A DNA stretch of 64,000 nt from Nephrocerus scutellatus (taxonomy: Eukaryota; Arthropoda; Insecta; Diptera; Pipunculidae). Location of the stretch: assembly GCA_947095585.1 (NCBI GenBank), contig OX352761.1:60814832-60878831 (forward strand), in the 5' to 3' direction. The position numbers and the translations under genes are program-made. This document shows positions 12,575-56,742 of this stretch, one piece after another. The notes beneath the pieces are model-generated. The model worked only from the letters and a program-made list of their open reading frames with translations, made no database searches and was not told the DNA's origin. Each line of letters opens with the position of its first letter. Position 1 is the first letter of the stretch.

Positions 12575-12579
12575 GGGCC
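12575..12579. repeat. Target-site duplication GGGCC, left copy
   Basis: GGGCC here and at 21,230-21,234 flank the BEL element exactly. Five bases is the usual duplication length for BEL/Pao elements. Confidence 0.9.
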
Positions 12580-13128
12580 TGTTTAGTGACGTCAAGAAAT
12601 ATGCACGTATGCTGACACACAGCGGTTCGTTCATTCAAGCCAACGAACTTGTTGCTGATCTAGCAGTTGACCTGGAATCAGTTCGTTGGTTTGGGGTAAC
12701 GAACTGTATTGACGATTCAGCATATCCGCACATTTTAATTTCTAATTGGGGTAATGAACTATATTGAAGATTCAGCACTTTGCACATTTTAATTTCTACT
12801 TAGGGCAACGGACTACATTCACGACGCAGCATATTTACTACTTTGTTAATTCTCTTTATTATTGTTTACGTTTAGTTTATTATTCATTAATTGTAAGTTG
12901 CCTACGTAATGTAGTTTTTGTATTGTATATAATAAGCTACCAATTCAATAAAAATGTGATTATTAAATACACCGTGAAAGAAGACGTTTGTTTTTCATGC
13001 TAATAATTATCCACTTCGAGTGTAACAAGTTCAAGTGCTTGGTATACATCAAATCTTTATCAAGTTTATGTGCTTGATAATAACTTAACATCCTTATAGA
13101 ACAATTGCAGGCAAACGAGTCTGTAACA
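12580..13128 (+). repeat. BEL 5' LTR (549 bp)
   Basis: It starts TGTTTAGTGACG and ends GAGTCTGTAACA. Within U3 are about two and a half tandem units of roughly 55 bp, each with GGTAACGAACT or a variant, GATTCAGCA and GCACATTTTAATTTCTA. An AATAAA polyadenylation signal lies near 12,947. It matches the 3' LTR except for about five substitutions and has the same length. Confidence 0.92.
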
Positions 13129-13130
13129 TT

Positions 13131-13150
13131 TTGGTGACCCCGACGTGATC
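13131..13150 (+). promoter_or_regulatory. Primer binding site, tRNA-Trp type
   Basis: TGGTGACCCCGACGTGAT lies two bases after the 5' LTR. It is complementary to the 3' end of insect tRNA-Trp (…CACGTCGGGGTCACCA), which would prime minus-strand DNA synthesis. Confidence 0.8.
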
Positions 13151-13381
13151 GTCACATTCAGTCACATTTTGGTGACTTCTACTTTTTTAAAGCGTGGACC
13201 AGGGCTATACACTGGTGCCAAGTTTAAATTCGTAATATTTGAAAATACTTTGGCGTGTACCGGAGCCATATACTGGTACCATCCTAATTGCGCGAAAATT
13301 TTGATCCCGACAAGGGCACAATTTTTACAATATATCATCTGTAAATCTTCACTATCGGAAGATTAAACATAGACATTGATC

Positions 13382-15448
13382 ATGGCTTCATTTGAAGAAC
13401 TCGTCGGGGAACAATTGGCAATTGGCCAAGAAATCCAGAGAGTCATAGCCAATTTTAAAAAGGACTCCCCAGATAGAAAAACAAAAAGGTTTTATTTTGA
13501 GGAGCGATTGCACCGGCTGCAAGACAATTGGGGGAAATTCGCAAAAACAGACAGAAAAATAAAGCTGCTGTCGAATGTTCCTACTGATCACGATTATTTT
13601 ACGAAGGAATACTATTCGGAAATATCAACACTTTGTGAAATTTACAAGAAACGGTTCGAAGAGGCAATGGCGAACATTGAAGATGCGAGTATTGAAGGTG
13701 CTACTGGCGGTGAGAGAGGAATGGACCCCGCGCAACCAGCGCTATCAAAAATAGATCCAATAACGACTTCGGCGGATGAGCCATCAAGAATTATTAATAC
13801 GATCAGAAGACAAAAGGCCGTATTAGAATCGTTGCGGAGAATGATCCAGGGATTATCTTTGAGCGAAGATCAACCCCCACAGTATCATGAGATACAATTT
13901 AAAACGATTGATCAACTGTGGCAGCAGGTTGAGTCCCTTAACTATTCCATTTGGGAATTAGAGGAAGACCCAATGAAGTTCGGCTACAAACTCACAGAAT
14001 ATGTCGAAATGGAAAGTTTGGTTCAAGAAAAGTTGGTGACAATGGCAACCAAGATGATGCAATCATATGCTAGAGGAGGAGTTTCGGAGGAGATTAGTAC
14101 AGCTAAGCCGAGCTCACTGAACCTACCAAAGGTCACCATTCCAAAGTTTGATGGTGACTACCTAAAGTGGAGACAATTTTTCGATCTATTCTCTCAAATG
14201 ATCGACAAGCAACAGATACCCAACGTTCAAAAAATGTGGTATCTAAAATCTCATCTCAGCGGCGAAGCAGAAAATTTGATCCGGCACCTCTCATTATCAG
14301 AAGAGAACTACACAACCGCTTGGTCCACCCTGCAGGATCGATACAACAACGTTCGAATTCTGACATCAACACTTATACAAAAAATACTTGGACAACCCAA
14401 CCAAACACAAGCTCAACCATCAGCGGCTGCTATCAAGGCTCTACACGATACCACTCATGAGTGTCTGTTAGCATTAGGTAATCTAGGCATTAATACCTCA
14501 ACGTGGGACCCTATTTTACTACAATTTCTAGTTAACAAACTAGACCAGAGTTCCAGAGGCCTCTATGAACAATCGCTTAAAAGACCTAAAGAACTCCAGA
14601 CAGTGAAGGAATTTTTGACTTTTCTGGAAAACCAATTTCAATCGCTAGAGGCTATCGGACACAAGAAAAAAGAAGGATATCCACGAACTTGTGCTACAGC
14701 AGCATCGGAGCAATGGCTCAAAAATATCTGTAAATCTTGTGGAAAGGGAAATCATCCCTTGTATGCCTGCAATCAATTTTTGCAACTAAAACCTGCTGCT
14801 CGGATACAATTGGTACAAAAGGGCAAGTTATGTCTGAATTGCTTAAGAGCTGGTCATGTTGCTAAGAACTGCGTCTCGCGGAGCTGTATGAAGTGCGACA
14901 AAAAACACAACACACTTCTTCATCTCGAAAGCAATAAAGATTCATGTACCGATAGCAATCTCATAAACCAAGAGCCGAAGACGAATTCATCGGTAACGTT
15001 AGCAGCATCCAAGGAGCGAGAAAGACAACAATACGTACTGCTCAGTACAGCCATGATACGCATAGTGGCTAACAATGGGCAGGTGATGGAATGTAGAGCT
15101 ATATTGGATTCTGGCTCTCAGGTAAATTTGATTACCGAACGATTGGTGAAGAGATTAGGACTTCGCACAAGGACAGCATCAATCAGTATTCAAGGCATTG
15201 GAAACGAAAAAAGAGAATCCCATCACCGCATTAATGCTAGCATTCAGTCAAGAATTAATGGCTTTAGTGCTCGATTGGAAGCATTTGTTTTGCCGCACAT
15301 CATTACACCACAGCCGTCTCAATTTTTAAACATTTCATCATGGGGAATACCAAACAACATTCCACTCGCCGACCCAGCATTCCATCGTCCAGACACCTAC
15401 CTACTCTCCAGAATACCGTCTTTGGTTGGGTATTGGCTGGAAGGGTAG
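13382..15448 (+). CDS. BEL gag and protease region (frame ends at a frameshift)
   Basis: The first ATG is at 13,382 (MASFEELVG). It encodes capsid/nucleocapsid and the aspartic protease of a BEL element. The DUF1759-type gag domain (PKFDGDYLKWRQF, about 14,135-14,180) is followed by zinc-binding clusters at about 14,730-14,925 (CKSCGKGNHPLYAC, CLNCLRAGHVAKNC, CMKCDKKH). The protease active site ILDSGSQVNLI is at about 15,100-15,135, with DSG as in other BEL elements. The frame ends at 15,448 only because of a frameshift between about 15,345 and 15,420. The true polyprotein continues in the next frame (LQNTVFGWVLAGRVG). Confidence 0.9.
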   Translation: MASFEELVGEQLAIGQEIQRVIANFKKDSPDRKTKRFYFEERLHRLQDNWGKFAKTDRKIKLLSNVPTDHDYFTKEYYSEISTLCEIYKKRFEEAMANIEDASIEGATGGERGMDPAQPALSKIDPITTSADEPSRIINTIRRQKAVLESLRRMIQGLSLSEDQPPQYHEIQFKTIDQLWQQVESLNYSIWELEEDPMKFGYKLTEYVEMESLVQEKLVTMATKMMQSYARGGVSEEISTAKPSSLNLPKVTIPKFDGDYLKWRQFFDLFSQMIDKQQIPNVQKMWYLKSHLSGEAENLIRHLSLSEENYTTAWSTLQDRYNNVRILTSTLIQKILGQPNQTQAQPSAAAIKALHDTTHECLLALGNLGINTSTWDPILLQFLVNKLDQSSRGLYEQSLKRPKELQTVKEFLTFLENQFQSLEAIGHKKKEGYPRTCATAASEQWLKNICKSCGKGNHPLYACNQFLQLKPAARIQLVQKGKLCLNCLRAGHVAKNCVSRSCMKCDKKHNTLLHLESNKDSCTDSNLINQEPKTNSSVTLAASKERERQQYVLLSTAMIRIVANNGQVMECRAILDSGSQVNLITERLVKRLGLRTRTASISIQGIGNEKRESHHRINASIQSRINGFSARLEAFVLPHIITPQPSQFLNISSWGIPNNIPLADPAFHRPDTYLLSRIPSLVGYWLEG

Positions 15449-15935
15449 GCGAAGCACAACTCATAACAGCAGCATGTGGAATTTCCACTTACAACGACAA
15501 TGATCTACACCAAATGGTCGAACGTTTATGGAGCCTCGACGAGGTACAACCAGTACGAACTCATTTATCCAGAAATGAAGAGTTGTGTGAAGCACACTTT
15601 GCACAAAACACCCGAAGGGGTAGTGACGGGCGCTTTATTGTGAGATTGCCATTCTGTGAAGACACAAGTAGACTTGGCGAATCTCAAGAAGTTGCATTGA
15701 ACAGGTTCCTAGCCTTAGAGAGGAGACTATCCCGAAACCCGGAGTTGAAGACTCAATACATACAATTCATGGACGAATATGAATCATTGGGCCACATGAC
15801 AAAAATCAATATCGGTGACATTATATCGCCACATTACATCATTCCTCACCATTGCGTGTTGAAGGCCGACAGCAGCTCTACCAAGCTTCGAGTCGTATTT
15901 GATGCGTCATGTACACGGGCCCAACAGTGCAGGGT
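15340..15935 (+). pseudogene. BEL pol, protease-RT linker and RT start
   Basis: It continues the polyprotein after the frameshift: linker typical of Pao-type pol (FWSLDEV-like, RNEELCEAHF), then the RT entry ISPHYIIPHHCVLK and KLRVVFDAS. After VFDAS a stretch of about 15 residues usual for this family is missing and the frame changes. This marks a short deletion near 15,909. Confidence 0.85.
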
Positions 15936-18794
15936 GAACTATTTTCACTTTTACTTCGATTTCGATTGCCCAGGTTTGTCTTTTGCACTGACATACAAAA
16001 AATGTACCGGCAAATACTTATGCATCAAGATAATAAAAGGTACCAAACCATTATCTGGAGAAAGAGTGAAAACGAGCCTTTACAGTACTATGAACTCAAC
16101 ACCGTAACATATGGTACAAGAGCGGCACCTTATCTAGCAACAAAGTGCCTACAACAACTAGCTAAAGAAACATCCGATACATTTTCATTGGGATCTCAAG
16201 TTCTCCTCAACGATTTTTATGTAGATGACTGTCTAACTGGGACTGACAGCCTATCAAACGCTATCGAAACGAAGAATCAACTCACGCACATATTAGAGGG
16301 TGCAGGATTCAAATTACGGAAGTGGTGTGCCAATCATCCACAACTGCTCGAAGGAATTGCAAGGGAGGATCAAGAAATCAACCTTGACCTGGAAGACGAA
16401 GACAACGCATCAATCAAGGCGCTTGGCCTCACATGGCATCCGAAGACAGACAATTTTCGTGTGAAAACTCAATTGAACTCTACCAGCCGGGTCACAAAAC
16501 GAATTGTTACCTCGTATCTTGCGAAACTATTCGATCCCTTGGGCGTGATGGGTTCAGTAGTTGTTACTGCAAAAATATTTGTTCAAGAGCTATGGAGATT
16601 AAAATTATAAAGGGACGAAGCATTACCCGCCGAACTACATACAAAATGGATATCATTCCGAAACAACCTAAAGGAGTTAAATGATTTTCAATTTCCACGA
16701 CATATGTTCGGCAGTAACGTATCAACAGTCATACAAATCCACGCGTTTGCCGATGCTTCCGAAAAGGCATATGGAGCAGTGATATACCTACGAGCAAAAC
16801 TGAAAGATGGAAGAACGATAGTAAGATTGTTATGTTCAAAATCACGAGTCGCTCCATTAAAGAAACAAACCTTACCACGACTAGAACTATGCGCTGCAGT
16901 TCTAGCGGCTCAACTCACTGCAAGAATCAAGGATGACCTGAAATTTAAAACCGTACCGACATTTTTATGGACAGACTCAGAGATTGTCCTGGCCTGGATT
17001 AATTCTCCTTCATCGTCGTTCCAAACATTCGTGGCCAACAGAATCGCTACTATTCAGGAAAATTCACTTCCCGACCAATGGCGTCATGTGGCATCCAAGC
17101 ACAATCCTGCCGACGTACTATCAAGAGGATTACAACCAGATAAATTACCACTATGCACGCTGTGGTTTTACGGACCCATGTTTCTACATGGAAAGGAGGA
17201 CTTATGGCCAGGAAAATACGTTAAGGGGCTGGCCATCCTTGAAGACACAGAGAGAAAACGAAATTTGCCAATTGTAGCAACAGCAACCCATACCGAGGAT
17301 CAAGAACTAATATACAAAATCAACCACCGGAATTCATTTGCAGTACTTCAGAGAATTGTTGGATACATACTACGCTTCATCAAACACGCGAATTCTCCGA
17401 AACTTCAACGACAAGACGAGATTACCTTGACTCCCCAAGAACTAAATGATTCATTAGTTGTCATAACCCGAGCAATACAAGCATGCGACTTTAAGCAAGA
17501 AAGTCATGATCTAAAAACTTATAAAGAACTAAAACGAACAAGTCACCTTTCAAGTCTTGCCCCATTTTTAGACGATAAGGGAGTTATCAGAGTAGGAGGA
17601 CGATTGGAGTCATCAGCACTATCATATGACGCAAAACATCCAATGCTTCTACCGTACAACGATCCATTGGCAAAACTTTTATTGAAAGGGATTCATGAAA
17701 GGAATATGCACTGCGGACCTCAGACACTTTTAGCTCATGCTAGGCAACGATGGTGGCCTATCAAGGGAAAAATAATGGCCCGCTCAATAGTACAACATTG
17801 CATAAGGTGCAGTAGAGCTAAACCCCAATTGCTCAAACAAGTAATGGGCAATCTTCCTTCGCCTAGAATTACACCAGCAAGACCTTTCATTAACTCAGGA
17901 GTCGATTATTGTGGTCCATTTTGGATCCATTATAAAATTCGCGGGAAAAGGCCTCATAAGGAATACGTAGCACTATTCTGCTGTTTCACCACCAAGGCTG
18001 TACACTTGGAACTTGTCAGCGACCTAACCACTGAAGCGTTTCTTGGAGCATTGAGGAGATTTATTGGCCGCAGGGGACACTGTCAAACCCTATACTGCGA
18101 CAACGCAACAAACTTCGTGGGAGCAAACAATCAGCTGGCAGATTTGAACACAACACTTTATTCGGAAACCGCACGGAAAACAATCATCAAGGAATGCAGT
18201 GACAGGGCGATTCAATTCAGCTTCATTCCACCGAGGGCACCTCATTTCGGTGGTCTTTGGGAGGCAGCCGTAAAATCGGCAAAACACCTGCTTATAAGAA
18301 GCGTATCGACAGCCTCGCTGACTTACGAAGAACTTGAAACAGTGCTAGTTGGAATAGAGGCCATCTTAAATTCAAGACCTCTCACACCGATGTCCAGTGA
18401 CCCGAACGACATCACCGCTTTAACTCCGGGACACTTTCTGATTGGAGAGCCACTGACGGCCCAAATTGATGCCAACGCAGCATCTACAAAACAAACTCTA
18501 TTGACCAGATGGAACCTAGTCTCTCATCTCAAATATGAGTTCTGGAAGCGATGGTCACAGGAATATCTGAGTGAACTGCAATATCGTCATAAGTGGAAGG
18601 AGTGTTCCAAGAACATCAAAGTGGGAGAAATGGTCATCATTAAAGAAGACAATGTTCCACCCTTGCAATGGCCACTTGGACGAATTGTCAAAACTTATGA
18701 GGGCGAAGATGGATCTGTACGCGTTGTGGACGTCAAAAGTGCAACTGGAGTTTGGAAAACGTCCAATCCACAGATTGGCACCGCTACCAGTTGA
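15909..18794 (+). pseudogene. BEL pol: RT, RNase H and integrase, one in-frame stop
   Basis: RT continues from GPTVQGELFSLLLRF and FCTDIQKMYRQI to the catalytic FYVDD (about 16,217-16,231). An in-frame TAA at 16,608-16,610 is the only break in this frame. RNase H follows (HAFADASEKAYGAV, LWTDSEIVLAWI). Integrase has the zinc-binding H-H-C-C region (about 17,690-17,820, HCIRCSRAKP). The core D (VDYCGPF), D (LYCDNATNF) and E (GGLWEAAVKSAKH) are all present. The C-terminal module typical of Pao integrases (VGEMVIIKEDNVPPLQWP) ends at 18,794. All catalytic residues are kept. Confidence 0.9.
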
Positions 18795-18930
18795 AGACAA
18801 CGACGAACATCCTGAGTTCCACTAAAAGCAGCAGAGCGCAGAGGATTCTGCAACAACGTAACCAACAACAATACCCACAAAACGACGAAAGACATCGAGT
18901 GGCATCAACCTCACATCCTTGCTAGCCATC

Positions 18931-20653
18931 ATGTTAATATTACCAATTGTATGTGCAGACAAGATCCAGATTTCGAAATTCAATTCAAGCCTTGGAATTC
19001 ACTTCGAAGGAATAGGGTCCGTAAATAGAGCAACAAGTGAATGGGACTTTATTATCTATTACCAACTGGACCCAATAAGATCAGAATTTAGTGCCCTCTC
19101 AAATGGAACAAAACGATTGGAGCAGTTATGTCAAAAATTGCGGGAACAAGAACTATGCCACAATACACTCAACCAGTTTCACCACATCATAGACGAGCTA
19201 CAATCCGAAGAAATCTTGCTATCAGCCAGACGAACCAAGAGGGGAGCGGTGAATCTGATAGGAAACATTGCCAATTCGCTGTTTGGAGTTTTGGATTCAG
19301 AGTATGCAGAACAGATGCCGACTACGATAGACCAAGTAAAGGATAACGAAAATCATTTGCTTGGCCTACTGCGCAACCAAACATCCATAATTGACTCAAC
19401 CATAAATTTACTAAAGAAAGGCGAGACAGCAACAAGTAAAAAATTCGATGCAATTGATAAACACTTGAATGAAATCACATCAAGAGTTCGGGAAAATTGC
19501 GAGGATGAGTTCCAGTTGAAGATATTCCAGGCGTTCCTATTAGTTGCCTCTCAACTAATCCTCATGATAGTGAACTTACAAAGGATGCAGACAGCACTAT
19601 TAGATGTACTCTCTGAAACTCATCATTAGAATTAGCTCTCTATTGCTATCAACAACACAACTTAAGGAAGAGTTGCAAACCATCAAGGCACACTTACCAG
19701 CCTATTTAGAAATTCCTACTGATGAAGATAATTTGCTGCAGTTGTACAAACTAATGACGGTTAAGAGTGGAATCGCCAAAAATCATGTCGTTTTTAGAAT
19801 TACACACCCACTGGCAGATCAGGAGCAGTACGATCTATTCAGAATAATTGCCATTCCAAGTCTCATCAACAACACCATGGTTGCTATTCGAACTTGTGCA
19901 CCAGTATTGGCCATAAGCTCCCATCGCGACGAATACTTTCCAATAGATTCAACAACTCTAAGATCTTGCGTTAGCCTGAAGGACGAGCAATATCTGTGTT
20001 TCAATATTCAATCAAAATACAGGAATGGCGCAGAAGCCTGCTCATGTGAACTACGACTTCTCAACAACGAAACTCAATCAACATGTATGTTCGAACGGAC
20101 GGAGAGTAAGTCGACATGGATTCAAATGGATCATAAAAACCAATGGATATACGCCACGTTAGCTCCAACTCGGCTTTCAGCAGTTTGCGATAGAGAATCT
20201 TCACAGTTTGTCTTAGAGGGTTCGGGAATGTTAACACTTCAACCCGAATGTATTCTTAGACACAATTTCATCACCATCCATGGGCATCAAACGTTCTCCA
20301 GCACCATAAGAACATCATACACAAGTTTTACAAAGCTGTCAGAAGTCGCAGTAATTACGCAACTCAAGCCACTACTCACGGATTTCAACGCCAGTAGCTA
20401 CGAAAATCAACTCAAAAAACTTACGGACCTTCATGATATGATTGCCCAGCAGAAGGTGTTTGAGCTGCCTCATAAGCTTCAAGCACACACTTATCACCAT
20501 CTGACCATTGGATACCTGGCGCTAATATTTTCCATCTCGCTAATCATCTACGTCACCTGGAAACACATAGCACTCAAACCTACACCGAAACCTCAGCCGA
20601 AGCCTCGACACCAAGTGGAAGAGTCAGACTTCACAGTTACGATTAATAAATAG
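18931..20653 (+). pseudogene. Envelope-like gene, baculovirus F/gypsy-env type, one frameshift
   Basis: The frame is open from 18,919, with a first ATG at 18,931 and a hydrophobic signal-like start (MLILPIVCAD). A furin-type site RTKR lies at 19,231-19,242, followed by a glycine/alanine-rich segment beginning GAVNLIG. This is the arrangement of class I fusion proteins of the baculovirus F and errantivirus envelope family. A helical region follows (about 19,380-19,500). A frameshift near 19,600-19,660 splits the frame; the rest runs to 20,653. It has cysteines typical of an ectodomain, a membrane anchor at about 20,509-20,571 (GYLALIFSISLIIYV) and a short proline/lysine-rich tail. The reading is described as broken; function is inferred from family features only. 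Confidence 0.8.
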
Positions 20654-20668
20654 TTAAATTATTATTTA

Positions 20669-20680
20669 ACGGGGGGAGAA
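20669..20680 (+). promoter_or_regulatory. BEL polypurine tract
   Basis: ACGGGGGGAGAA immediately precedes the 3' LTR. It is the expected primer site for plus-strand DNA synthesis. Confidence 0.85.
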
Positions 20681-21229
20681 TGTTTAGTGACGTTAAGAAA
20701 TATGCAAGTATGCTGACACACAGCGGTTCGTTCATTCAAGCCAACGAACTTGTTGCTGATCTAGCAGTTGACCTGGAATCAGTTCGTTGGTTTGGGGTAA
20801 CGAACTGTATTGACGATTCAGCATATCCGCACATTTTAATTTCTATTTGGGGTAATGAACTATATTGAAGATTCAGCACTTTGCACATTTTAATTTCTAC
20901 TTAGGGCAACGGACTACATTCACGACGCAGCATATTTACTACTTTGTTAATTCTCTTTATTATTGTTTACGTTTAGTTTATTATTCATTAATTGTAAGTT
21001 GCCTACGTAATGTATTTTTTGTATTGTATATAATAAGCTACCAATTCAATAAAAATGTGATTATTAAATACACCGTGAAAGAAGACGTTTGTTTTTCATG
21101 CTAATAATTATCCACTTCGAGTGTAACAAGTTCAAGTGCTTGTTATACATCAAATCTTTATCAAGTTTATGTGCTTGATAATAACTTAACATCCTTATAG
21201 AACAATTGCAGGCAAACGAGTCTGTAACA
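20681..21229 (+). repeat. BEL 3' LTR (549 bp)
   Basis: Same ends (TGTTTAGTGACG / GTCTGTAACA) and same length as the 5' LTR, with about five substitutions between them. It is followed by the second GGGCC target copy at 21,230-21,234. Confidence 0.92.
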
Positions 21230-21234
21230 GGGCC

Positions 21235-33251: not shown

Positions 33252-34229
33252 ATGACTTTTCTAATAGACACCGGAGCTGATATCTCCCTATGTAAAGTAT
33301 CGAAAAATGTATTAAATGAACGATACTACCCGGAAGAAAAATGCAAATTGACTGGTATAACGAACGAAGAAATATACTCATGCAGAATAATAGAACTAAA
33401 AATGACAACTGGTGATATAGAATGCACCCACGATTTTCAATTGGTAGACGAAAAATTCCCAAAAGATACCGACGGAATATTAGGTAGAGATTTCCTAAAA
33501 CGTTTTTTTAGCAAGATAGACTATGAAACATTCACTTTCCAGATCAACGACACAAACTTCGTGCTACCTATGCACACCAAGTCACTCCAAACTCTGAAAA
33601 TAAAAATTCCCCCTAGAACCGAAATTATTCAACCAAAAAAACTTGATCTAAAAGAAGATACAGTTATACTCAATAAAGAATTAGTACAAGGCGTTTTTAT
33701 TAGCAACTCTATTGCATCAGGCATGACACACATAAAAATCCTAAACACAAATAACACAGACATTACATTAGAACACATTAAAATAGAGACGACACCACTT
33801 AATGACTATGACATACTAATATACGAAACACAAAATGTTTCAAAAGAAAAACGAATACAACAAATAATAAATTCTTTAAAAATCGACAGTAATGACGAAC
33901 AATCAAAACTTTCACTAATAAATATAATTAGACAATACCATCAGGTATTCCATTTAGAAAATGAACCTCTAACAGTAAATAATTTTTACACACAAAAAAT
34001 CTCAACTCATGACAATACCCCAGTATATATCAAAAACTACAGATTACCCCATTCAAACATAGAAGCCATAAATGAGCAAGTAAACAAAATGCTCAAAGAT
34101 AAAATTATAGAACCATCAGTAAGCCCATATAACTCACCTCTTCTCTTAGTCAAAGAAAAACTGTTCCGACAAAAAGAAATGGAGAGTAGTAGTAGATTTT
34201 CGAAAATTGAACGACAAGATAGTAAATGA
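33252..34229 (+). pseudogene. 412/mdg1-like pol: protease and RT N-terminus
   Basis: The aspartic protease active site LIDTGADISLCK lies at the very start, and GILGRDFLKRF follows about 70 residues later. The RT finger region (YRLPHSNIEAINEQVNKML, IIEPSVSPYNSPLLLV) follows. A frameshift near 34,165 ends the useful frame; the last 20 or so codons to 34,229 are out of frame. Expression probably needed ribosomal frameshifting from gag, because the first ATG lies only a few residues before the active site. Confidence 0.82.
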
Positions 34230-36312
34230 CAAATTCCCATTAACGAGACTAGAGGACATCTTAGACAAATTAGGCAGAGCCAAATGGTTTTCGACTTTAG
34301 ACATGACTAGTTCCTTTCACCAAATTAACCTAGATAAAGATTCAAGACCCTTAACAGCCTTTTCTACATCAAACGGACACTACCAATTCAAAAGACTACC
34401 CTTTGAACTAAAAATTTCATCAAATAGCTTTCAAAGAATGTTAACTATAGCACTTTCTGGCCTAGAATCACAAGCATTTCTATATGTAGATGACATAATC
34501 ATCTACGGATGCAGTCTAAACCACCACAATGAAAATTTGATTAGAGTACTAGATAGATTGAAACACTACAATTTAAAACTTAACCCAGACAAATGTTGTT
34601 TTTTACGACCAGAAGTAGTGTATCTTGGTCATCTAATCACCAAGGACGGCGTACAAACAGACCCCGCCAAATTCAAAACAATCAATGAATACCCCATACC
34701 AAAAAACGCAGACGACACAAGAAGATTCATAGCATTTTGTAACTATTACCGACGTTTCATACCAAATTTTGCAGACATAGCAAAAGACTTAAACGTATTA
34801 CTAAAAAAGAACACAAAATTCAACTGGACACCAGAATGTCAAACCGCATTTAATACACTCAAAGAAAAGCTCATTAACCCACCAATTCTGCAATACCCAA
34901 ACTTCGATAAACCATTCATTTTAACAACTGACGCCTCAAATTTTGCTTTAGGTGCAGTACTTTCACAAGGCGAAATTGGCAAAGACCTACCTATATCGTA
35001 TGCCAGTAAGTCACTGCAAAAACACGACCTAAACAAACCCGTCATTGAGAAAGCACTCCTTGCAATACATTGGAGTATAAACTTTTTTAAACCATACCTA
35101 TACGGTAGAAGATTTACTGTAGTCACGGACCACAGACCTTTGGTATCACTGTTTACGCACAGTAACCCATCATCAAAAATGACAAGAATACGATTAGACT
35201 TATGTGACTATAATTTTGAAATAGTCTACAAACAAGGAAAATTGAACACGAACGCGGATGCATTATCGCGAATACAACTAGACTCGGATATATTAAAGGA
35301 GATGATACCGCATAAAATAGATGAAAAAGCCAAGAAAGCATTAATAATTACAAGGGGAATGACCAAAAACGATAAGAAAGAGGATAGTACGGAGAAATGC
35401 AGCTCTCAACAGAAGTCTGATCAACTTCAAATGTGGGAATGCACATCCATAAATGAGATAAAGAACATGAGGAAATTAAAATTTAATGTCGACAAAAATA
35501 TAAAAAACTGCAGAATAAGTATTGAAAATAATTATGTACACGTAAGTTGCAGCGATAAATCAGCGAATCCAGATTCGACTCTGAGAAAGCTTGCACAAAG
35601 AATGGAAAAAGAAAATATTAAAAACCTAGCGCTAGGATATGACGATAATATATTTAAAGTGTACACAAAAGAAGAATTAAAGAAAGCATATGCAAATATA
35701 AAGATAAATAACAGAAATCCTCATCTGAACATACTAATATATATCGCCCCCATACAAGTAAATGATGATTTAACAAAGTACAAATTAATTGACGAATTTC
35801 ATAATTCGACACATGGCGGACATCTCGGAGTCAGAAAAACCATTATAAAACTAAAACAAAGATACAACTGGAAAAACTTGGCTCAAATGGTCAAGAAATT
35901 CATAACCAATTGCGAACTCTGTGCCAGAAATAAACAGACACAACACACAAAAGAACCTCTGACAGTTACAGACACTCCTAACACTAGTTTTGAAATAGTA
36001 TCTATAGACACAGTAGGACCATTAAGAATATCAAACGGTTTTAGATATATTCTGACAATGCAGTGCGAACTTACAAAATTCGTTCTTGCATACCCAATGA
36101 CATCTAAAGACGCAATCTCAACAGCAAAAACAATAGTTGAACAGTTTATTCTAAAATACGGACACTTTAAGATACTCAAATCGGACAACGGGACAGAATT
36201 TAGTAACGAACTATTAAGAAACATATGTTTCACATATAACAAAATGCTTAGTGCTGGAAATAAAACAAACATTTTCCACACCATACCATCATCAGACAAT
36301 AGGAGCACTTGA
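34207..36312 (+). pseudogene. 412/mdg1-like pol: RT, RNase H and most of integrase
   Basis: RT palm motifs: FSTLDMTSSFHQI and the catalytic FLYVDDIIIYG (about 34,478-34,510). RNase H: TTDASNFALGAVLSQG and VTDHRPLVSL. Integrase: zinc region with HGGHLGVRK and CELCARNKQ (about 35,810-35,935), first D in IDTVGPL and second D in KSDNGTEF. A frameshift near 36,245 ends this frame at 36,312. The E of the DDE triad (GALERNHRVLNEF) is in the next frame for about 120 bp. Confidence 0.85.
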
Positions 36313-46019: not shown

Positions 46020-46793
46020 TTTAATTTTAATTTTTGTGTCCGTGCGGTGGGCTGAGGGTCAGCATGCGGTTACTTTCCAGGGACGTCAGGTGGACAATTC
46101 CTGGATGGTGTCTGACGCCGGCTACCTTTCCTTCAGTGGTCCACAACTTAAATTTCCGGGATGGTCGTGGGTTGGTCAGACACATTATGGCCGCAATCTC
46201 CTCCGGTGTCATAGTGCCTCCCACGACCCGATATCCTTCGAAGGTGCGGGTTGGTTCGACGGTAGCGATGGTGATAGCAGTTGTAGTAGTAGTGGTAGTA
46301 GAAGCGGTAGTGGCGATGATCGCGTTGGTGGCGGTGCTGATCGGTACGGTGCGGGTAGCGGTGGTGGTCGGGATGGTGGCGGTAAAGGTGCTGATCGGAG
46401 CGGTGGTAGTAGCGGTGATTATCGGAACGTTGGCGGTTGCGGTAGCGGTGATGGTTGGAACGGTGGCGGTAGCGGTGACGGTCGGAACGGTGGTGGTAGC
46501 GGTGATGATCGGAGCGGGGCGGGTAGTACCTCAATTCGCGTTATCCTGAATTCGTCAGGCCATTCTTCACCGGCGACATGCCAGGTGGCGGTGTAGGGTG
46601 CGACAACATGCTGTGTGGCGGCCCCGGTGGGTGGTGCAGTGTCTGCACTGGCGGGGGTAGTGATGACGGACGAGGTGGTACGTGACAGGCCCAGGAAACG
46701 CATGGGTGTGGCGGCGGTGCCTCTGACGCGTGGGACGGCGTGACACAGTCTTGTCAGCTCGTTGGCCGTTAGTGGCCGTCGTGGTGGCGGCAT
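46020..46793 (-). pseudogene. Osvaldo-like copy 1, pol C-terminal tail with Thr/Ala repeats
   Basis: It encodes the tail after integrase: RRPLTANELTRLCHAVPRV, a threonine/alanine-rich repeat block at about 46,268-46,540 in the matching frame, and PEEIAAIMCLTNPRPSRKF (about 46,215-46,160). A 47-bp deletion near 46,795 puts it out of frame with integrase. It has one 38-residue repeat block fewer than copy 2. Function unknown. Confidence 0.65.
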
Positions 46794-47845
46794 GGGGGGG
46801 TTGGTACTGGGGCTGGTTGTGTACGGCGTCGTTTGCCCATTTCGACCATGTCAGTAGTGAATTTGACCGTTTCGTTCGGCATGTTGACTGTGACTGATTG
46901 TTCGATTTCTGTTTTGTTCATACCTGCGGTATCGGCATTTTCGATTAGTGGTTGTTCTGGTAATTGCTTGCAATCTTTAATGTGTGTGGTTATTGTCTTT
47001 TTCCTCTCCCCTTCCAAGATATAGATTACTGGTGAGAGTTTCTTTTTTATTAAATATGGTCCCATAAATCTTGGGGCTAATTTGGCGGAGAATTGGTTGG
47101 TTGCGGACGAGAGGGGGCGGTGGCGGTAGTATACCAGTTCTCCTACCTGAGCGGTCCATGGGCGTCGCCGTAGGTCGTAGTAGTGTTTTTGTTTGGTGAA
47201 CGCTTTGGCGGCGTTGAGCTGGACCAGGGTGAAGGCATCGTATAATTTGCTTATTCGTTCGGCTGTGTTGGGTTCGGTGTTTAGGCTGATTGTGGGGGTG
47301 GTGGGTAAGCGGAGCTCTCGGCCGTAATTTAGGTAGGCCGCCGAGTACCCCGTAGTTTCGTGTTGACTTGTGTTTATCGCTAGCATTAGTTCGGGTAAGT
47401 ACTCGTCCCACTTCCGGTGATCCTTTTGTACGTACTGGGCTACCATGGTTTTGATTACCCTATTCATGCGCTCGGTCGGATTTGCTTGCGGGGTGTAGGG
47501 TGGGGTAAGCCTTTGCTCTATGTTGAGTTCTGCCAGTAGAATTTGAAAGGGCTTGCTTCGGTATTGTGTTCCGTTGTCGGTGATTAATTGCTTTGGGCAT
47601 CCGTAGCAGCGGCTTAGTATGCGTTCCCGAAATCCTTTGATCAGGGCTGGGGTGGTTGCATCTCGCAGGGCCACAAATTCGGTCCATTTCGTAAATTTAT
47701 CGTGGAAAACCAGAATCATCGTATTTCCTTTTGTTGATCGAGGCAGTGGTCCGATAAAATCGGAACATACTATTTCCCATGGGTGCGAATTTGCGGTTCG
47801 GTGCATCTGGCCGGCAGGTTTCCTGGCCGGGGATTTGTACTCCAT
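46769..47845 (-). pseudogene. Osvaldo-like copy 1, integrase
   Basis: Integrase core with D (CSDFIGPLP), D (ITDNGTQYRS) and E (NPTERMNRVIKTM), plus the C-terminal domain (GELVYYRHRPLSS, KLAPRFMGPYLIKK). The zinc-binding H-H part is lost by the 38-bp deletion at about 47,955. Its CPIC half is upstream of this frame. A CYG insertion of one codon (SRCYGCPKQ) distinguishes it from copy 2. Confidence 0.82.
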
Positions 47846-47919
47846 ACAAATAGGGCAACTGCGGACGAAGCGGGCGACATCTCTGAATAACCCTGGCCAG
47901 TAATAGGTTTGGTCGATTC

Positions 47920-49976
47920 GTGCGATGGTTTTTGCTATGCCGATGTGGCCGGCGTAGGGGCTTTGGTACGCATATCTTCCATGCAGATGCGGTGGTTTCC
48001 GTGTAGCAAGTCGGGCTGTAAATGTGTCGGTACAGGGTATCCTCGGTTATTTGGTACTCTGGGTTATCCTCGGGGTTCTTCTTTACCAGTTGTAATTTTC
48101 CTTCATACCACGGGCAAGTTGCGGTGATGGGCAGCAATAGCCGCACTGGTGACTCTTTGGTGGGATGTCTAGAGAGTACGTCAGCGACGGTGTTTAGTGA
48201 ACCCTTCCGGTAGCGGATATCAAAATCGAATTGTTGCAACTCTATTGCCCAACGGGCTAGGCGACCAGATGGATTCTCCAAATTGTTTAGCCATTTTAAC
48301 GAACGGTGATCGGTGTGTACGATGAAATGGTATCCCTCTAAGTAGGGCCTCATTTTCCGGATTCCCCAGACGACGGCGAGACATTCTTTTTCGGTGACCG
48401 AATAATTCCGTTCGGCGTCGGTTAATGTGCGGCTTGCGTATGCAATTACCCTCTCTTGAGTTTCGATCGTCTGGGATAGTACGGCGCCTAATCCTTCGGC
48501 GCTGGCGTCTGTTTGGAGGAGGAACGGCTTGGTAAAGTCTGGGCAGGCAAGGATGGGGGCTTCCGTTAGCTTTTGCTTCAATAACTGAAATGCTTCTTCC
48601 TGAGCGGTTTGCCATACCCACTTCTGGTATTTCTTTAGTAAACGTGTTAATGGAGCGGCTACGGTTGAGAAGTTTGGTACGAACCTTCGGTACCATGAGG
48701 CGATCCCAAGTATTCTGCGTAATTCCTTAATGTTTCGGGGTGGCATTAGGTTGCGGATTGCCTCTACCTTGCTTGGGTCTGTGTGGATTCCCTCTTGGTT
48801 CACCATATGCCCTAGATATCGCATCTCGGAACGGCCAAATTCGCATTTGTCTGGGTTTATCTTTAATTGAGCCTGTTTTAGCCGACGGAATACCTCCTTT
48901 AGTGCGGTAGTGTGTTCGGAGAAAGTGCGACCAATCACTATGATGTCATCTAGGTATGCGAATGCAAAGGGCTCTAATTCGGGGCTAATAATTTGATCGA
49001 GCAGGCGCTGGAAAGTGGCAGGCGCAGAGTGCAGTCCAAATGGCATTACCTTCCATTGAAACAAACCTCGGCCCGGGACGGTAAAGGCGGTGTATGGCCG
49101 ACTGTTTGGTTGGAGAGGTATTTGCCAGTATCCTTGCTTTAGGTCAATGGTCGATATGTATTTGGCTCCTTTTAACTTGTCCAGTATGTGTTGTATCTGG
49201 GGTAGGGGGTATGCATCTTTTATGGATATTTCGTTCAGTTGGCGGTAATCCACGCACAACCTCCACGTGCCTTGCTTCTTTCGTACCAGTACGATAGGTG
49301 AGCTGTATGGGCTTCGGGATGGTTCTATCTTCCCTTCCGCAAGCAATTGATCAATTTCGGCGTTAATGATTGCCTGCATTGCTGGGTTTCTGGTCATGTA
49401 TCTGTGCTTGAACGGTCGGTGGTGCTTCAACCGGATCTCGTGTTCGGTGACGGTGGTTAATCCTGCGAGCCGCTCGAAGGTAGGTAGTTCTTCGGCTAGT
49501 AGTCTTTTTAGTATCTCTGCCTCGGTTGACAAATTTCGCAGTGTCGGTGGTGTTGGCTCGCTTTGGGCGGTTATAATCTCATTCCCTCTATTTATGGTAA
49601 AACCATGTTTCGCTAGGAAATCTGTACCGATGAGGAAATTGTCCATCAGATTTGGTATATAGACAAATTCTTCGTTGAACGTCCACTTTCCCCATCGTAT
49701 GGCAAGTGTGTATGCTTGGTGGGCGGTGACGGTGGACTTGTCCGCTAGCGAGAACGTGATTTCGATCGGATGGGCCGGTATGTTGGCGGCTATGCAAATA
49801 CTTCTGATGTCTTTGCCTATGCAGGATCTGTCTGCCCCGGTATCAATCACTGCGTTGTATGGTTGGTGGCAAAATTCGATTGGTAGAGTGTATGAGGTGA
49901 GACTAGGGGTAGCGGTATCGGGGGCGTCTAACGTCTCACTGCCTTGGACGGCCCGGTGGCGTTTCCCGCTAAGCAT
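47920..49976 (-). CDS. Osvaldo-like copy 1, pol: protease, RT and RNase H
   Basis: It overlaps the end of gag by 49 bases in another frame, so expression probably relied on frameshifting. The protease has AVIDTGADRSCIG. RT has EPSRSPYSSPIVLVRKK, WRLCVDYRQLNE, ISTIDLKQGYWQIPL and the catalytic FAYLDDIIVIG. RNase H has LLQTDASAEGLGAVLSQ, SVTEKECLAVVWGIRK and VHTDHRSLKWL. The frame is open from 49,976 but goes out of register at the 38-bp deletion after CVPKPLR (about 47,957); the codons beyond, to 47,697, are spurious. Confidence 0.87.
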
Positions 49977-51275
49977 CGACAGTGTCGGCTTTGTACTCCG
50001 TTGGTTCCGCAGTACGAGCAGAATATTCGTCGGTTTTGGCAGGCTCCTCGTTGGTGTCCTGGCTGGCCACAGGTCCAGCAGCAGGTTCGACGGTTGTACT
50101 CGGGATCGGGCAGTGGTGATGCTGGATACGGTTCTGGTGGTCTACCGATGGTGGGGACGTCATTTGGCCGGGCGGTCTGTAGTTGCGGTTGGTAGGCATG
50201 TACTGCCGTTTGGTGGGGCGGTGTGGTTTGGTGATATATTGCCTCTGTCGGGTGCATCGTTGGGTGGTATGCCTGGATGGTCGCTTGGTGCAGCGGCGCA
50301 TTTGGGCGGTAGGAGGCATCGGTTGGTCGGGCGGTCTGTCCTTGGGGTTGGTAGGCCGTGAGGGTCGACTGAGGCAGCGGTGCGGCTGGGCGGTACTGTG
50401 GCGTGGCTTGCCGGTAGGGCGCGGGGGCTGGTCGGAATGCGGGTCTTGACATCGGTGTGTTTGGTCGAATAGCCGGGGATTCACTTTGCAGGTGTTCGAA
50501 CTCTTCGACCAATGCGGTGAGTTCCGGTAGTGTGGAAAACTCTCGCCTTTTCACATAGTGGCGGTACTCAGGACGGAGATTGTCGTAAATTTGGTCAAGT
50601 TTTTCTTCGGGTGTGAATGTTGTCTGCCATCTCATTAAGGCCTGTATTGCTGTGATAAATTCCTTTCCCTTCTCTTTCGATGTTTGTGTTCGATTCCGTA
50701 TTTGGTCACGGAGATGAGTGGAGAATCGGTAGGGGAGGAAGAACTTCCGCAGTTCGGTGCTGAACTCGTACCAAGTACCCAGGAGTTCCTTATTATTTCG
50801 ATACCAGGTTAGAGCGGTTGCTTTGAGTAACTCTGGTAGTGTGCGGACGATGCGGTCGAGTGGGACCTGGTAGCACTCAGCTAGTTCTTCCACTCGCTCC
50901 AGAAATTCGAGTGGGCTACCAGAACCATCATACCGTACGTTCCACCGGCGTACTTTGTCCATCACCTCAGCGTCGGATATACGATAGACGGTGATTGGAG
51001 CCTTATCGACTGGTCGATTTGCTTCCATCGGAGAAAGCGATATTGTTGGTATAGTCGGCGGTTTTACTTGGTGGCCTTCGTATTTAGCGGGGGTTACGGA
51101 GGCGGTCAGGTCTTCACACGACTTGTGTTTACGGATGCTGCCTGATAGTCGTTTCCGCAGCTCGTCTACGGTACCTGTGCTGTCCATACCACGTTGTGTC
51201 AGTTCCACCACAAGTTCGTCTTTCTTCAGCAGATAGATTTCGCTAGCGTTTAAACTGGTTCCTTCGCTGGCCATT
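49928..51275 (-). CDS. Osvaldo-like copy 1, Gag
   Basis: The first ATG is at 51,275 (MASEGTSLNASEIYLLKKD). An SAP-like helix pair opens the protein (ELVVELTQRGMDSTGTVDEL). The capsid part follows (VRYDGSGSPLEFLERVEEL, LTWYRNNKELLGTWYEFST). A long proline/glutamine/tyrosine-rich linker (ATPQYRPAAPLPQ type) leads to zinc-binding clusters CCWTCGQPGHQRGAC and FCSYCGTNGVQSRHCRC. It is 449 codons long and uninterrupted. It is nearly identical to the Gag of copy 2 except for a few substitutions. Confidence 0.88.
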
Positions 51276-51500
51276 GCTACGTACAGTTTTCTTCTTATAT
51301 AAAAAAAAGTTTTGTCTTTTGATTTGACCACTCGCCGTTTGGTGACCAAGAATTTATTTTTGGGTGACGCTTTCACCACTTTAAGCTCTTACTTTTGCTA
51401 CTACTACTACAAATTAGAGTTAATTTGTTACCAACACGCGTTGCTGCTGATATAGTATATGCTACGGGCGGTCGGTGGAAGGATGTGGACGAAAAAGTGT

Positions 51501-51518
51501 CCCTGCTCGGGCGCCAAA
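51501..51518 (-). promoter_or_regulatory. Osvaldo-like copy 1, primer binding site
   Basis: The - strand reads TGGCGCCCGAGCAGGGAC, one mismatch from the lysine-tRNA primer site known from Osvaldo and lentiviruses. It lies three bases after the LTR end. Confidence 0.8.
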
Positions 51519-51521
51519 TTT

Positions 51522-52733
51522 GTAACGAGTTTCGCTCGGGTGACGCTCGCCGGTCACCCAGGGTCCATGCGGTGGGTTGTTACAAATTAAAGATTGAGGT
51601 TTCGGTTCATACAATTTATTTATTCTATACTTAAAACTACTTATTATACCTTATTCTACGGTCGTTATTTGGCCAACTAGTGGCGTCGGTCGGTATCGGT
51701 CGGTAGGTCGGTGTTACGGGAGGGGGTAACGGAGCGGAGGCGTGAACCTCAGCACGTGAGATATAGCGCTCTATATTTCGACGCTAAACTGGGGGGGGGG
51801 GGGGGTATGAGTGGCGTGTTACTCGTACCGCTTTTGATGGACAACTAGCCTTATCGGAAGGCACACGGGAGAAGCTTGGTGACGACCAGGCTACCGAGTT
51901 GTGAAATTACGGTTAGTCACACAAGTGGCAGATATAGCAGTAGCGGCCCCGTCTAACGAGCGGCGTGCCCCTAGCGTTATCTGTGGACTTGGGCGGTAAG
52001 TTTGAGTCAAACAAGTTGGGAGATGAGACAGTAGTGGCCCCGTCTAACGAGCGGCGTGCCCCTAGTGTTTCCTTCCAACTCGGACGGTAAGTTTGAGTCA
52101 AACAAGTTGGGAGGCGAGACAGTAGTGGCCCCGTCTAACGAGCGGCGTGCCCCTAGTGTTTCCTTCCAACTCGGACGGTAACGCACTGGAAGAGTGACGG
52201 AATTTATCGGACAGAATTGTCCCTGGTGCTCTCGGTGAAGAGTGCAGAAATTGGAACAGAGTTCCTTGTGGTGCGAATAAATGGCCTTGGCAATAAACTT
52301 CGGTCAGGGTTACTCCACCACGACTTCAGTGGTTCGTGGCGGTCTTGATACGATTGTATTTTTGATGACCGATGGGGAATTATATTGGCGCTGATTTCGG
52401 AAAATATAATTTGTTGTTATTATATTATGATATCATTCTCCCCTTCGTTTTGTCAAAAAAACAAATGCCCGACCCACCCTTGAACCTGTGATTTGGTGTT
52501 CGGTCGGTATCTTGGCTGGAGACTTATCCGTGGCGCTAATATCGGATATATTTTTGACCGAGCGATTGGTGTACATGGACCTTGATGTTCGCGAGATTTT
52601 TATGAAAAAAATGTTTTCCCTCGCCTGGGATTTGATCTCGAGCATGTTGACTCTCCGGCCAATCGCTCATGCTATGTGCTATTGGGTCCGATGTGGTAGG
52701 CGACGGCAATATGCCTTTATAGAAATTAATTTT
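51522..52733 (-). repeat. Osvaldo-like copy 1, 5' LTR, truncated at the outer end
   Basis: It matches the LTR of copy 2 from its inner end to the palindrome centre (ATAGAAATTAATT), where it breaks off at about 52,733. CsRn1-like integrase sequence continues there. Three 91-bp tandem units are present. Confidence 0.82.
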
Positions 52734-52739
52734 CAAATT

Positions 52740-53498
52740 ATTTCAGCGGCAAATGACAGTAATAAACAAATGGACCAAAACCTGCAATGAATGCCGAAAA
52801 GAAAAAATTCACAGACACACAAAGACAGCTTTCGATCGCATAAAAATACCTCCAGGTAGATTTCAGCACATACACATGGACATAGTAGGTCCACTGTCAC
52901 CTTCGAACGATTTCAAATACATATTGAAATAGTAGACATTTTCTCTAGGTGGCCAGAGGCCTATCCAATGCGAGATATATATGCGGTAACGGTGGCCACA
53001 ACGTACGTTCAGGAACACGTTATGAGATTCGGGGTACCAAACATAATTACCACAGATCAAGGTTTGCAATTTGAGTCTAAACTCTTCAAGGAACTGGTAA
53101 ATTTCTTGGGCACCACACGAATCCGAACCACGGCATATCACCCGCAAGCAAATGACATGGTGGAAAGATTCCATCGCCAACTAAAGACATCAATTCGAAC
53201 ATCCGACAATAGAATAAACTGGACACAACAGCTACCCCTAATTCTACTAGGCATTCGGACAACCATGAAACACGACATAAATCATACGCCGTCCGAACTC
53301 CTCTACGGAGAAAACATCAAAATGCCTTTTGAATTTTCCTCAACAGCATCTAAAGATACCACTGAATCGAATTTGGTGGAACAATTGAGAGAATTTTTCA
53401 AAACATTACCAATTAAAACATTAGAAACCAGAAAAATTCTGAAACAATCAGTTCACTGTTCGGTGTCGATCGACAGACTCAAACCATTCTTTATTTAA
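52740..53498 (+). pseudogene. CsRn1-like integrase
   Basis: The region starts within the zinc-binding domain (CNECRKEK, about 52,785), followed by HIHMDIVGPLSPS with the first D. A frame break lies near 52,928. Then come FSRWPEAYPM, the second D (ITTDQGLQFES) and the E (ANDMVERFHRQLKTS). The C-terminal part (ELLYGENIKMPFEF) ends at 53,498, with a small internal deletion before SVSIDRLKPFF. It is 48 bp from the 3' LTR; there is no envelope gene. Confidence 0.82.
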
Positions 53499-53545: not shown

Positions 53546-53878
53546 TGTAGCGCATCGAACAGACCCACGCAAAGGTTAACAAACAAACCATACGAATTAC
53601 AATCGTGGAGATTCAGTGGGGAAAATGAAACAACAAAGCCTCACACGAATGTAGACGGAGGCGTTGTTAAAAAAGAGAATGAGACATTAGTCGCCCAAGA
53701 GAGCCTGTTCATTTTCACACAGTAAGAAAATTGTAGTTACGACACTAAGTCACTCCGCTTCATTGTGTAACTTATCAAATTGCAAAGTCAACTTTTATAT
53801 GTGTTTTAAAATAAAATTAAATAGCTAAACGATAGTGGTGAATTTTCATTTACATTTTTCGGTGTCGCAGCAACGATA
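53546..53878 (+). repeat. CsRn1-like 3' LTR (333 bp)
   Basis: It is preceded by the polypurine tract GGTAGGAGGGGGTGA. It starts TGTAGCGCATCG, ends CAACGATA and is followed by the second CACT (53,879-53,882). Confidence 0.88.
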
Positions 53879-55082
53879 CACTCATCCCAAATAATTATTT
53901 TGAAATTCTGTAGTACTTTCGCCATTGCTGAATTTTTGGCAATGTTGCACGTCGGTTCATCTACCGTTTGCAAATTTAGTGGCAGTTTGAGCGCAGATTG
54001 GGCTGTTCGTCCTCCTTCTAACAATGTGGAAGCGATACCAGATGATGCTACGGCTAGCGCTATTTGCCTTTGTGCCCATATCGATGCTAAAATCAATGAA
54101 ATTAGGAACGTTTTGCCAGTTCCGCCAGGTGCATCGAGGAAGAAGATTCCTCCGTAGCCGTCGTCTACTGCTATCATCAATGTGTCGTACGCGGGTTGCT
54201 GATTCAAAAGAAGGACTCTTGTTCGTACTGATTGACTTAAAGCATCTTGATCGTATTGCCGTTTTTGTTTAAATTCTCGATTAAATGCATCGTGCATAGG
54301 GCGATTCGTCACTGGCATTCCTAATTCGTGCAACATTTTTCCGGACATCATCAGACACAAATCTTCTATAGAAATCAACACCTCGTTGTAGATCTCCGCA
54401 TTAAATTCAAGTTCAAGATTCGCAGTAGTTATACGCATTCGATGCAAAATGTCTTCAGCCATATTGTCTTTGTATTTGTTCAACAAATGAAGTGGGTTCG
54501 ATGGAAAACACGTTGAAATGATGATGGCAAAAAGTGATCGATTTTTATGCGCAGTAGACGAAATAACAGCATCAGCGAGTGTGTGATCCGTGTGTAAGCA
54601 CTGACATGCTTCTCGATATCTTGCGCACAACTCACAATTGACAGTTCACAGAAATTCAAATGTAGTCGGTCCACGAAGATTAACCAATAACAAGCGCAGG
54701 TAAAAACATTCGTCATTGCAAGGATGAACTGTGTAAACGCGCCCCAATGCATCGGTTGAATATACGTTCACGTATCCTGGAAGAGGCTTTCCGTGTTTCC
54801 GACGTTGGAAGTTTTTCGATGATGCGTTCCATGTGTAATATTTCGGCATCTCCGAGTAAAGTAGTGTTCTTGCAAATGGATCAATTGCGCATGTCGCAAA
54901 GAAGCTTGTCAGCGTTGTCGCTGGTGGTCGTTCGGCTCTCTGCGCTGCATTTGCTGCCGTGAAATAAACTCGTCCATTCTCCAGGTGCACAGCTAAATGG
55001 ACTACAGTAGGATGACGTTCGTGTATGGAGAATGAAAAGATTCTCCAAACCGCCTCATTACTGCTGACATATCTTCCCATCT
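53879..55082 (-). pseudogene. Helitron helicase, N-terminal and Walker regions
   Basis: It starts right at the Osvaldo-like LTR with GRYVSSNEAVWRIFSF and continues through KYYTWNASSKNFQRRK and DECFYLRLLLVNLRGPTTF. An in-frame TGA follows at about 54,646. Then come YREACQCL, ELEFNAEIYNEVLISIEDL, the Walker A box FFLDAPGGTGKTFLIS (about 54,120-54,170) and ASSGIASTLLEGGRTAQS. It ends in Walker B IIIWDEC, cut by the CsRn1-like insertion. The frame is kept across the TGA, so few mutations separate this from a working gene. Confidence 0.85.
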
Positions 55083-55269: not shown

Positions 55270-55299
55270 ATAGAAATTAATTTTCGAATTAATTTCTAT
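55270..55299. repeat. Perfect palindrome, 13-bp arms, TTCG loop
   Basis: ATAGAAATTAATT, TTCG, AATTAATTTCTAT. The same palindrome lies at 62,839-62,868. Copy 1 breaks off inside the corresponding site. Confidence 0.9.
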
Positions 55300-56500: not shown

Positions 56501-56519
56501 TTGGCGCCCGAGCAGGGAC
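56501..56519 (+). promoter_or_regulatory. Osvaldo-like copy 2, primer binding site
   Basis: TTGGCGCCCGAGCAGGGAC, three bases after the LTR; one mismatch from the tRNA-Lys type. Confidence 0.82.
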
Positions 56520-56742
56520 ACTTTTTCGTCCACATCCTTCCACCGACCGCCCGTAGCATATACTATATCAGCAGCTACGCGTGTTGGTAACAAATTAACT
56601 CTAATTTGTAGTAGTAGAAGCAAAAGTAAGAGCTTAAAGTGGTGAAAGCGTCACCCAAAAATAAATTCTTGGTCACCAAACGGCGAGTGGTCAAATCAAA
56701 AGACAAAACTTTTTTTTATATAAGAAGAAAACTGTACGTAGC

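Follow-up and report, generated by a model that had tools for sequence, protein, structure and literature searches.

A degenerate BEL/Pao endogenous retrovirus with an F-type envelope gene, and its enveloped relatives, in the fly Nephrocerus scutellatus

Layout of the element

The window analysed here is a stretch of 64,000 nucleotides from the fly Nephrocerus scutellatus (assembly GCA_947095585.1, contig OX352761.1, positions 60,814,832 to 60,878,831 of the forward strand). Its positions 12580 to 21229 are occupied by an element that is bounded by two long terminal repeats (LTRs) and carries, between them, the remains of gag, a Pao-type pol and a gene for an F-type envelope protein (env). The parts of the element are as follows.

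12575-12579, no strand: target-site duplication GGGCC, 5 bp, with its second copy at 21230-21234
12580-13128, + strand: 5′ LTR, 549 bp, with TG...CA ends
13132-13149, + strand: primer-binding site TGGTGACCCCGACGTGAT, complementary to the 3′ end of a putative tRNA-Trp
13382-15448, + strand: gag and protease frame (Pfam DUF1759, 3.2e-33; Asp_protease_2, 3.7e-7)
15268-16107, + strand: pol piece (protease and reverse transcriptase) with frame changes at either end (protein P0003, 51% over 182 residues)
15903-16610, + strand: reverse transcriptase piece, closed by an in-frame stop (RVT_1, 3.9e-8; Peptidase_A17, 2.9e-7)
16611-18794, + strand: Pao-type region, RNase H and integrase with DUF5641 (Peptidase_A17, 1.5e-35; DUF5641, 7.9e-31; Integrase_H2C2, 8.8e-7)
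18795-18861, + strand: integrase-envelope linker, with one frame change and two stops here; continuous in other copies
18862-19629, + strand: envelope N-terminal piece, with cleavage site and fusion peptide (Baculo_F, 4.9e-13, profile 14-227)
18901-18957, + strand: signal-peptide-like hydrophobic stretch (19-residue hydropathy 2.22)
19231-19296, + strand: furin-type RTKR site and fusion-peptide-like segment GAVNLIGNIANSLFGVLD, from alignment and motif scan
19604-20653, + strand: envelope C-terminal piece, in a frame different from that of the N piece (Baculo_F, 8.2e-26, profile 246-572)
20501-20557, + strand: transmembrane anchor by hydropathy, followed by a short proline-rich basic tail
20671-20680, + strand: polypurine tract GGGGGGAGAA, with a similar tract in families B, C and D (see below)
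20681-21229, + strand: 3′ LTR, 549 bp, paired with the 5′ LTR

The TG/CA ends of the LTRs and the short target duplication are those of BEL/Pao elements, as is a Pao-type pol in the order protease, reverse transcriptase, RNase H and integrase; the pol piece at 15268-16107 gave no Pfam match of its own. An earlier note made from the window had called the element BEL/Pao and had put its LTRs at about five differences in 549 bp. The Pao-type peptidase region, the integrase zinc-binding domain, DUF5641 and the LTRs bear out the identification, and the LTRs differ by exactly 5 mismatches and 0 gaps. The window holds no further copy of the element that we could find. Its LTR has 40 matches at 97-100% identity in the genome, the element's own two LTRs included (40 of 240 candidates were scored).

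The primer-binding site fits the end of a tRNA that we take to be tRNA-Trp. The same site is present without change in families A (that of the window) and D, and the sampled stretches of family C hold only its first 5-7 bases. The 3′ half of the tRNA, including CCA, is also present as a 43-nt copy in the sampled stretch L093 (about 1481-1567), between a reversed LTR end of this family and a pol fragment, and we read this as primer copied into DNA. No tRNA gene was found in the window or in L092, L093 and L094 (ARAGORN for L093), and a first pattern search for primers returned just one palindromic site. The ICTV profile gives tRNA-Arg or tRNA-Gly as the source of the Belpaoviridae primer site (PMC8742986), which is not the tRNA end that the window site fits. 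The BEL/Pao-type element Achilles is described as using a tRNA-Tyr site (PMC4580426), so a tRNA-Trp site is no bar to membership.

An F-type envelope gene

Both envelope pieces match the Pfam family Baculo_F (PF12259), with bit scores of 49.0 for the N piece and 91.2 for the C piece against a curated cut-off of 24.1. In a single-sequence comparison, the C piece also matched the baculovirus fusion protein 9w4d (2.3e-7, 33.7 bits). Profiles of the C and N parts matched baculovirus fusion proteins of known structure (9w4c/9w4d), with values of 4.5e-14 and 5.7e-9, respectively, and behind the match of the N part came other coiled-coil proteins, including influenza haemagglutinin, at 0.012-0.095. 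Judged by these scores, the matches to Baculo_F and 9w4d are far beyond chance.

The furin-type site and the fusion-peptide-like segment that follows it are in the arrangement of an F-type envelope, and a second hydrophobic stretch lies at residue 221 of the N piece (hydropathy 2.14). The RTKR site, glycine/alanine segment, cysteines, C-terminal membrane anchor and short basic tail from which the earlier note had argued for such an envelope are all present, and the similarity to F/env families that it supposed for the frame at 18.93-20.65 kb is seen in the profile search, where both pieces score over the cut-off. Scans of viral contigs with the env C piece and with the envelope alignments A1, A2 and A3 found no relatives, and neither did a scan of genome contigs with A3. 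Protein searches returned 1 match for the env C piece and 3 for alignment A1, that one included, and did not reach relatives from errantiviruses or baculoviruses.

Envelope genes behind the integrase in five families

We searched the genome (613 Mb in 9 contigs, with the window part of contig C1) with the RNase H-integrase piece and obtained at least 64 matches, 31 of them at 85-100% identity (window copy included) and 33 at 59-63%. Leaving the window copy aside, 52 of the remaining 63 extend to the end of the integrase (19 of the 30 in the closer group and all 33 in the other), and 2.7-3 kb downstream of each was sampled. Envelope sequence matching the N piece lies behind the integrase in all 52, and sequence matching the C piece in 50. 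We assigned 19 of these loci to family A, that of the window, and the others to four sister families, B (9), C (16), D (4) and E (4). In the sister families, the matched env stretches are 32-54% identical to the window. The motif R-x-x-R-G occurs at 28 of the 52 loci (families A, B, D and E), and RTKR-A in all 16 of family C.

In some copies of each of the five families, a single frame runs on past the integrase end, through the linker and the signal-like stretch, into the envelope. This frame is open to the end of the envelope in 14 of the 52 copies (5 of B, 6 of C and 3 of D). Furthermore, 16 of the at least 64 matches to the integrase are part of open frames that run for 2,000 or more codons, the longest of 2,511. 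The env C piece by itself has 122 genomic matches (116 of 1,752 candidates were scored). A Baculo_F profile search gave 72 scored genomic matches, all above the cut-off, from 2,474 first-look candidates; 15 of the 72 fall in frames of 2,000 or more codons, and none of 14 control genomes had a match.

The long uninterrupted frames fit the suggestion of the earlier note that intact sisters may exist, and the envelope, whose absence from other copies would have spoken against its proposal, accompanies every copy sampled. The proposal of an enveloped BEL/Pao element in this fly lineage holds up, with the correction that the envelope is not special to one element: it occurs in five families and in other fly genera.

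Three further observations concern these copies. A basic cluster is present in the linker before the signal-like stretch in all five families (L009-L060), and that of family C has what we take to be the shape of a bipartite nuclear localisation signal. On contig C6, at about 20.735-20.751 Mb, three family C integrase matches spaced 6760 bases apart form a tandem array; in this array, stretches L042 and L059 have env C in a displaced position, and no env C piece was detected in stretch L060. On contig C2, at about 71.752-71.770 Mb, two pairs of family A matches are exactly 12181 bases apart, a spacing that points to a duplicated segment carrying the element.

How the envelope might be made

The stop-free join of pol and env raises the question of how such an envelope is made. 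With no stop between the two genes, translation of the genomic RNA should give a Gag-Pol-Env protein. In the scheme we propose, tRNA-Trp would prime the genomic RNA, and the same RNA would be translated into one Gag-Pol-Env protein whose internal signal stretch would route the Env part to the endoplasmic reticulum (ER); signal peptidase and furin would cut it. With its signal stretch and furin-type site, and with the fusion peptide and anchor, Env would thereby become an ER-inserted, cleaved fusogen. Once cleaved, it might enable particles to fuse with other cells, in the way that errantiviruses reach the germline from the ovarian soma.

Alternatively, Env could be produced from a spliced subgenomic RNA, as in errantiviruses, with the frame shared with pol being incidental. 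We consider this quite possible, at somewhat less than an even chance. Against this stand three observations. No MAG|GTRAG donor occurs in 12580-15000, where the single GTAAGT sits in the LTR. Acceptor-like sites with a 70% pyrimidine tract vary in place between families and are missing from family D (a crude scan, of the junction only). Finally, copies of five families keep the frame open through the linker, a feature that splicing alone does not require.

The strongest form of the polyprotein scheme holds that fly BEL/Pao retroviruses, recently active and predating the divergence of several fly families, make Env as the C-terminal part of a Gag-Pol-Env protein of about 2,500 residues with an internal signal, and have no separate env message. 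We advance this tentatively and regard it as doubtful in its entirety. If true, the expression plan would be unlike that of retroviruses and errantiviruses, and BEL/Pao elements would represent an independent line of infectious insect retroviruses.

Damage in the window copy and recent activity of its relatives

The window copy is broken in the protease-reverse transcriptase region, at the pol-env join and in env. Four frame changes (at about 15.3-15.45, 15.9-16.1, 18.76 and 19.60-19.63 kb) and three stops (16608-16610, 18823-18825 and 18859-18861) were located. The earlier note was therefore right that the frame is broken, but its count of one frameshift was too low. Seven breaks in a copy whose LTRs are only 0.9% apart could lead one to ascribe part of them to assembly errors. 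We judge this unlikely, as stops and frame changes also occur in other copies of the element's own family, as expected from decay.

The LTR divergence of the window copy is K ~0.0092. At an assumed rate of 0.016, the insertion would be about 0.29 million years old. At r = 0.0346, likewise an assumed value for this fly, its age would be roughly 0.13 million years; this second rate is used in PMC12992720, and we took it as per site and million years.

For 20 copies, 5′ and 3′ LTR stretches were compared, which gave 14 usable pairs (3 in A, 4 in B, 4 in C and 3 in D); 5 comparisons were without a pair, one matched another repeat, and several 5′ stretches stop short of the LTR end. Four of the 14 pairs (two in B and two in C) are identical over 673-720 aligned bases. 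Identity is 99.3-100% within pairs of B and C, 93-99% in D and 91-98.5% in A, with the low values including gaps. The identical pairs indicate that relatives in the sister families B and C inserted very recently. Recent activity, which the earlier note had claimed from the LTRs of the window copy, is thus supported by both those 5 mismatches and the identical pairs of its relatives. Between families B, C and D, env has a pS of 0.75-0.84 and a pN of 0.40-0.45 (one copy each). That pS is well above pN suggests long-term constraint on env.

Relatives in other species and origin of the envelope

Among 7,977 candidates scored, 1,895 proteins matched the RNase H-integrase piece at E ≤ 0.001, and the 120 of these that were listed were examined. 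The closest among the matches listed (53-64% identity) come from Rhagoletis, Teleopsis, Haematobia, Musca, Drosophila, Episyrphus and others; the remainder, at 41-49%, are from ants, bees and other insects, from spiders and from some flies. In seven of the 120, a single protein holds the integrase and, after it, envelope sequence: P0004, P0005, P0016 (Haematobia), P0009 (Episyrphus) and P0014, and, with the env C part only, P0026 (Teleopsis) and P0008 (Musca). As many of these proteins are incomplete and exons may have been joined in gene modelling, little can be read from a missing env or from the exact position of the join.

A tree of the RNase H-integrase region (62 rows, all homologs found by the window piece, without a Ty3 outgroup) places the window with BEL/Pao relatives: it belongs to a 23-row group (SH-aLRT 99) in which every named row is a fly, except for one Nicotiana record. 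All seven envelope-bearing rows lie inside one 33-row half of the tree. Protein P0017, filed under Nicotiana sylvestris, has a fly-type BEL integrase (55% identity), and the record is probably insect contamination.

Six further Baculo_F stretches of this genome were sampled. Four of them are BEL by their integrase and L091 is BEL by its family B linker. L086 is linked to gypsy, with a Ty3-type integrase (E 0.004 at best against the BEL/Pao relatives) and a separate env open reading frame (ORF). L090 represents a BEL lineage whose integrase is 47% identical to the window's and 50-53% identical to those of other elements, including ones from bees, and which carries the same kind of envelope. Pairwise identities of env N and integrase correlate with r 0.92 (28 pairs), but this test of co-divergence is weak and we give it little weight.

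In a tree of envelopes, eight BEL-linked rows and a ninth, the unassigned P0122, form one cluster with support 90/95, apart from the gypsy-linked and baculovirus F rows. The grouping of the BEL envelopes, and their occurrence in all sampled families and in other fly genera, make the gene look old in the BEL/Pao elements of flies. We infer that the gain predates the separation of these element families and of the fly genera sampled, provided that elements did not pass from fly to fly.

A recent capture of the envelope from a gypsy errantivirus of the same genome would agree with published accounts in which the env of roo, a Drosophila BEL/Pao element, derives from errantiviruses (PMC5408687, PMC7642597). 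Nevertheless, the window's env C and N pieces score 112-287 and 85-213 bits against the BEL envelopes of this genome and 48.5 and 67 bits against the gypsy-linked one. The BEL envelopes also cluster apart from that single sampled gypsy-linked envelope, and the gene is in every family examined and in other fly genera. We have rejected such a capture from a resident errantivirus on these grounds, and consider it very improbable. That the envelope came to lie beside this one copy by chance or through an unrelated insertion, as its broken state in the window and its frame differing from that of the integrase piece might hint, is in effect ruled out by the envelope sequence found at the same place in 52 of 52 other copies.

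Accordingly, our reading is that window positions 12580-21229 hold a degenerate BEL/Pao (Belpaoviridae) endogenous retrovirus insertion carrying an F-type envelope gene that looks old and was not gained by this copy, and that its relatives plausibly encode Gag-Pol-Env. We put the probability of this reading at about 0.85. Several results count against it or parts of it. On the side of history, the env N-integrase correlation owes much to one distant row (r 0.59 without it, 21 pairs), and that of env C is not significant (-0.07, 21 pairs; 0.34 without P0008, 15 pairs). In the envelope tree, gypsy-linked and baculovirus envelopes are represented by a single row each, and each of the two has a long branch. 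The label 'env in same protein' is not clustered on the pol tree (6 changes; 117 of 500 shuffles were as low), where truncated proteins blur any clustering. On the side of function, none of the sampled family A or E copies is open to the env end, and most family A env copies have decayed. Family A env ratios of 0.72 and 0.62, taken against the window copy (19 loci), indicate less constraint than the 0.37 of the integrase (seven best copies only). The structure predicted for the env C piece is poor (pLDDT 42), and the anchor of family D falls below the hydropathy threshold. Finally, expression, cleavage and infectivity of Env are predictions from sequence.

Other elements in the window

Two inverted Ty3/gypsy-type elements (46327-52743 and 55275-61762) are 97.1% identical over 6507 aligned bases. 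They flank a PIF1 helicase piece at 53809-54645, which is presumably Helitron-like. A Ty3/gypsy pol frame with reverse transcriptase, RNase H and integrase domains lies at 34150-36309.

Comparison with known systems

Infectious insect retroviruses are usually equated with the gypsy errantiviruses. Few BEL/Pao elements are described as containing env (PMC3118150), and roo is the sole Drosophila BEL case that the reviews name in the text available (PMC5408687, PMC7642597). A survey of D. melanogaster reports 17 env-F lineages, all gypsy/gypsy and with spliced env; it names gypsy/gypsy lineages as the bearers of full-length env-F, in a tree that also includes BEL lineages (PMC12992720). We found no paper in the open-licence literature on F-type envelopes in BEL/Pao elements beyond roo.

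Of the known systems, roo is the nearest. It has been termed an endogenous retrovirus of the Belpaoviridae (PMC12993057) and is described as having one 7083 nt ORF with gag, pol and env (PMC3087523). The same plan is found in the window's relatives, and the single frame is broken in the window copy. The env of roo is reported to be homologous to errantivirus env (PMC5408687) and to come from gypsy (PMC7642597). It is thought to have been acquired after the Drosophilidae branched off (PMC5408687), whereas here the env gene is present in other fly families. Set beside roo by its described organisation, the element adds to the enveloped BEL/Pao elements of the roo-like type, which are not confined to Drosophila.

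Errantiviruses such as gypsy and ZAM (Metaviridae) share the F-type envelope with signal peptide, furin site, fusion peptide and anchor (PMC12992720). They differ in having a Ty3-type integrase, an env that is a spliced third ORF, and LTR ends given as AGT/AnT (PMC5408687), in contrast to the TG/CA of the window; the element has neither the Ty3-type integrase nor the separate env ORF. The mosquito Pao element Anakin is likewise a BEL/Pao element with a captured envelope gene (PMC7642597), but its envelope is a chuvirus glycoprotein, of a kind termed type III in PMC13172572, rather than one of the F type. The baculovirus F protein is homologous by profile to both envelope pieces; unlike env, it is the product of a gene of a large DNA virus, and it is weakly matched in single-sequence comparison (33.7 bits). 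Several enveloped BEL/Pao families in one fly genome offer a second lineage in which envelope use, passage from soma to germline and piRNA defence can be compared.
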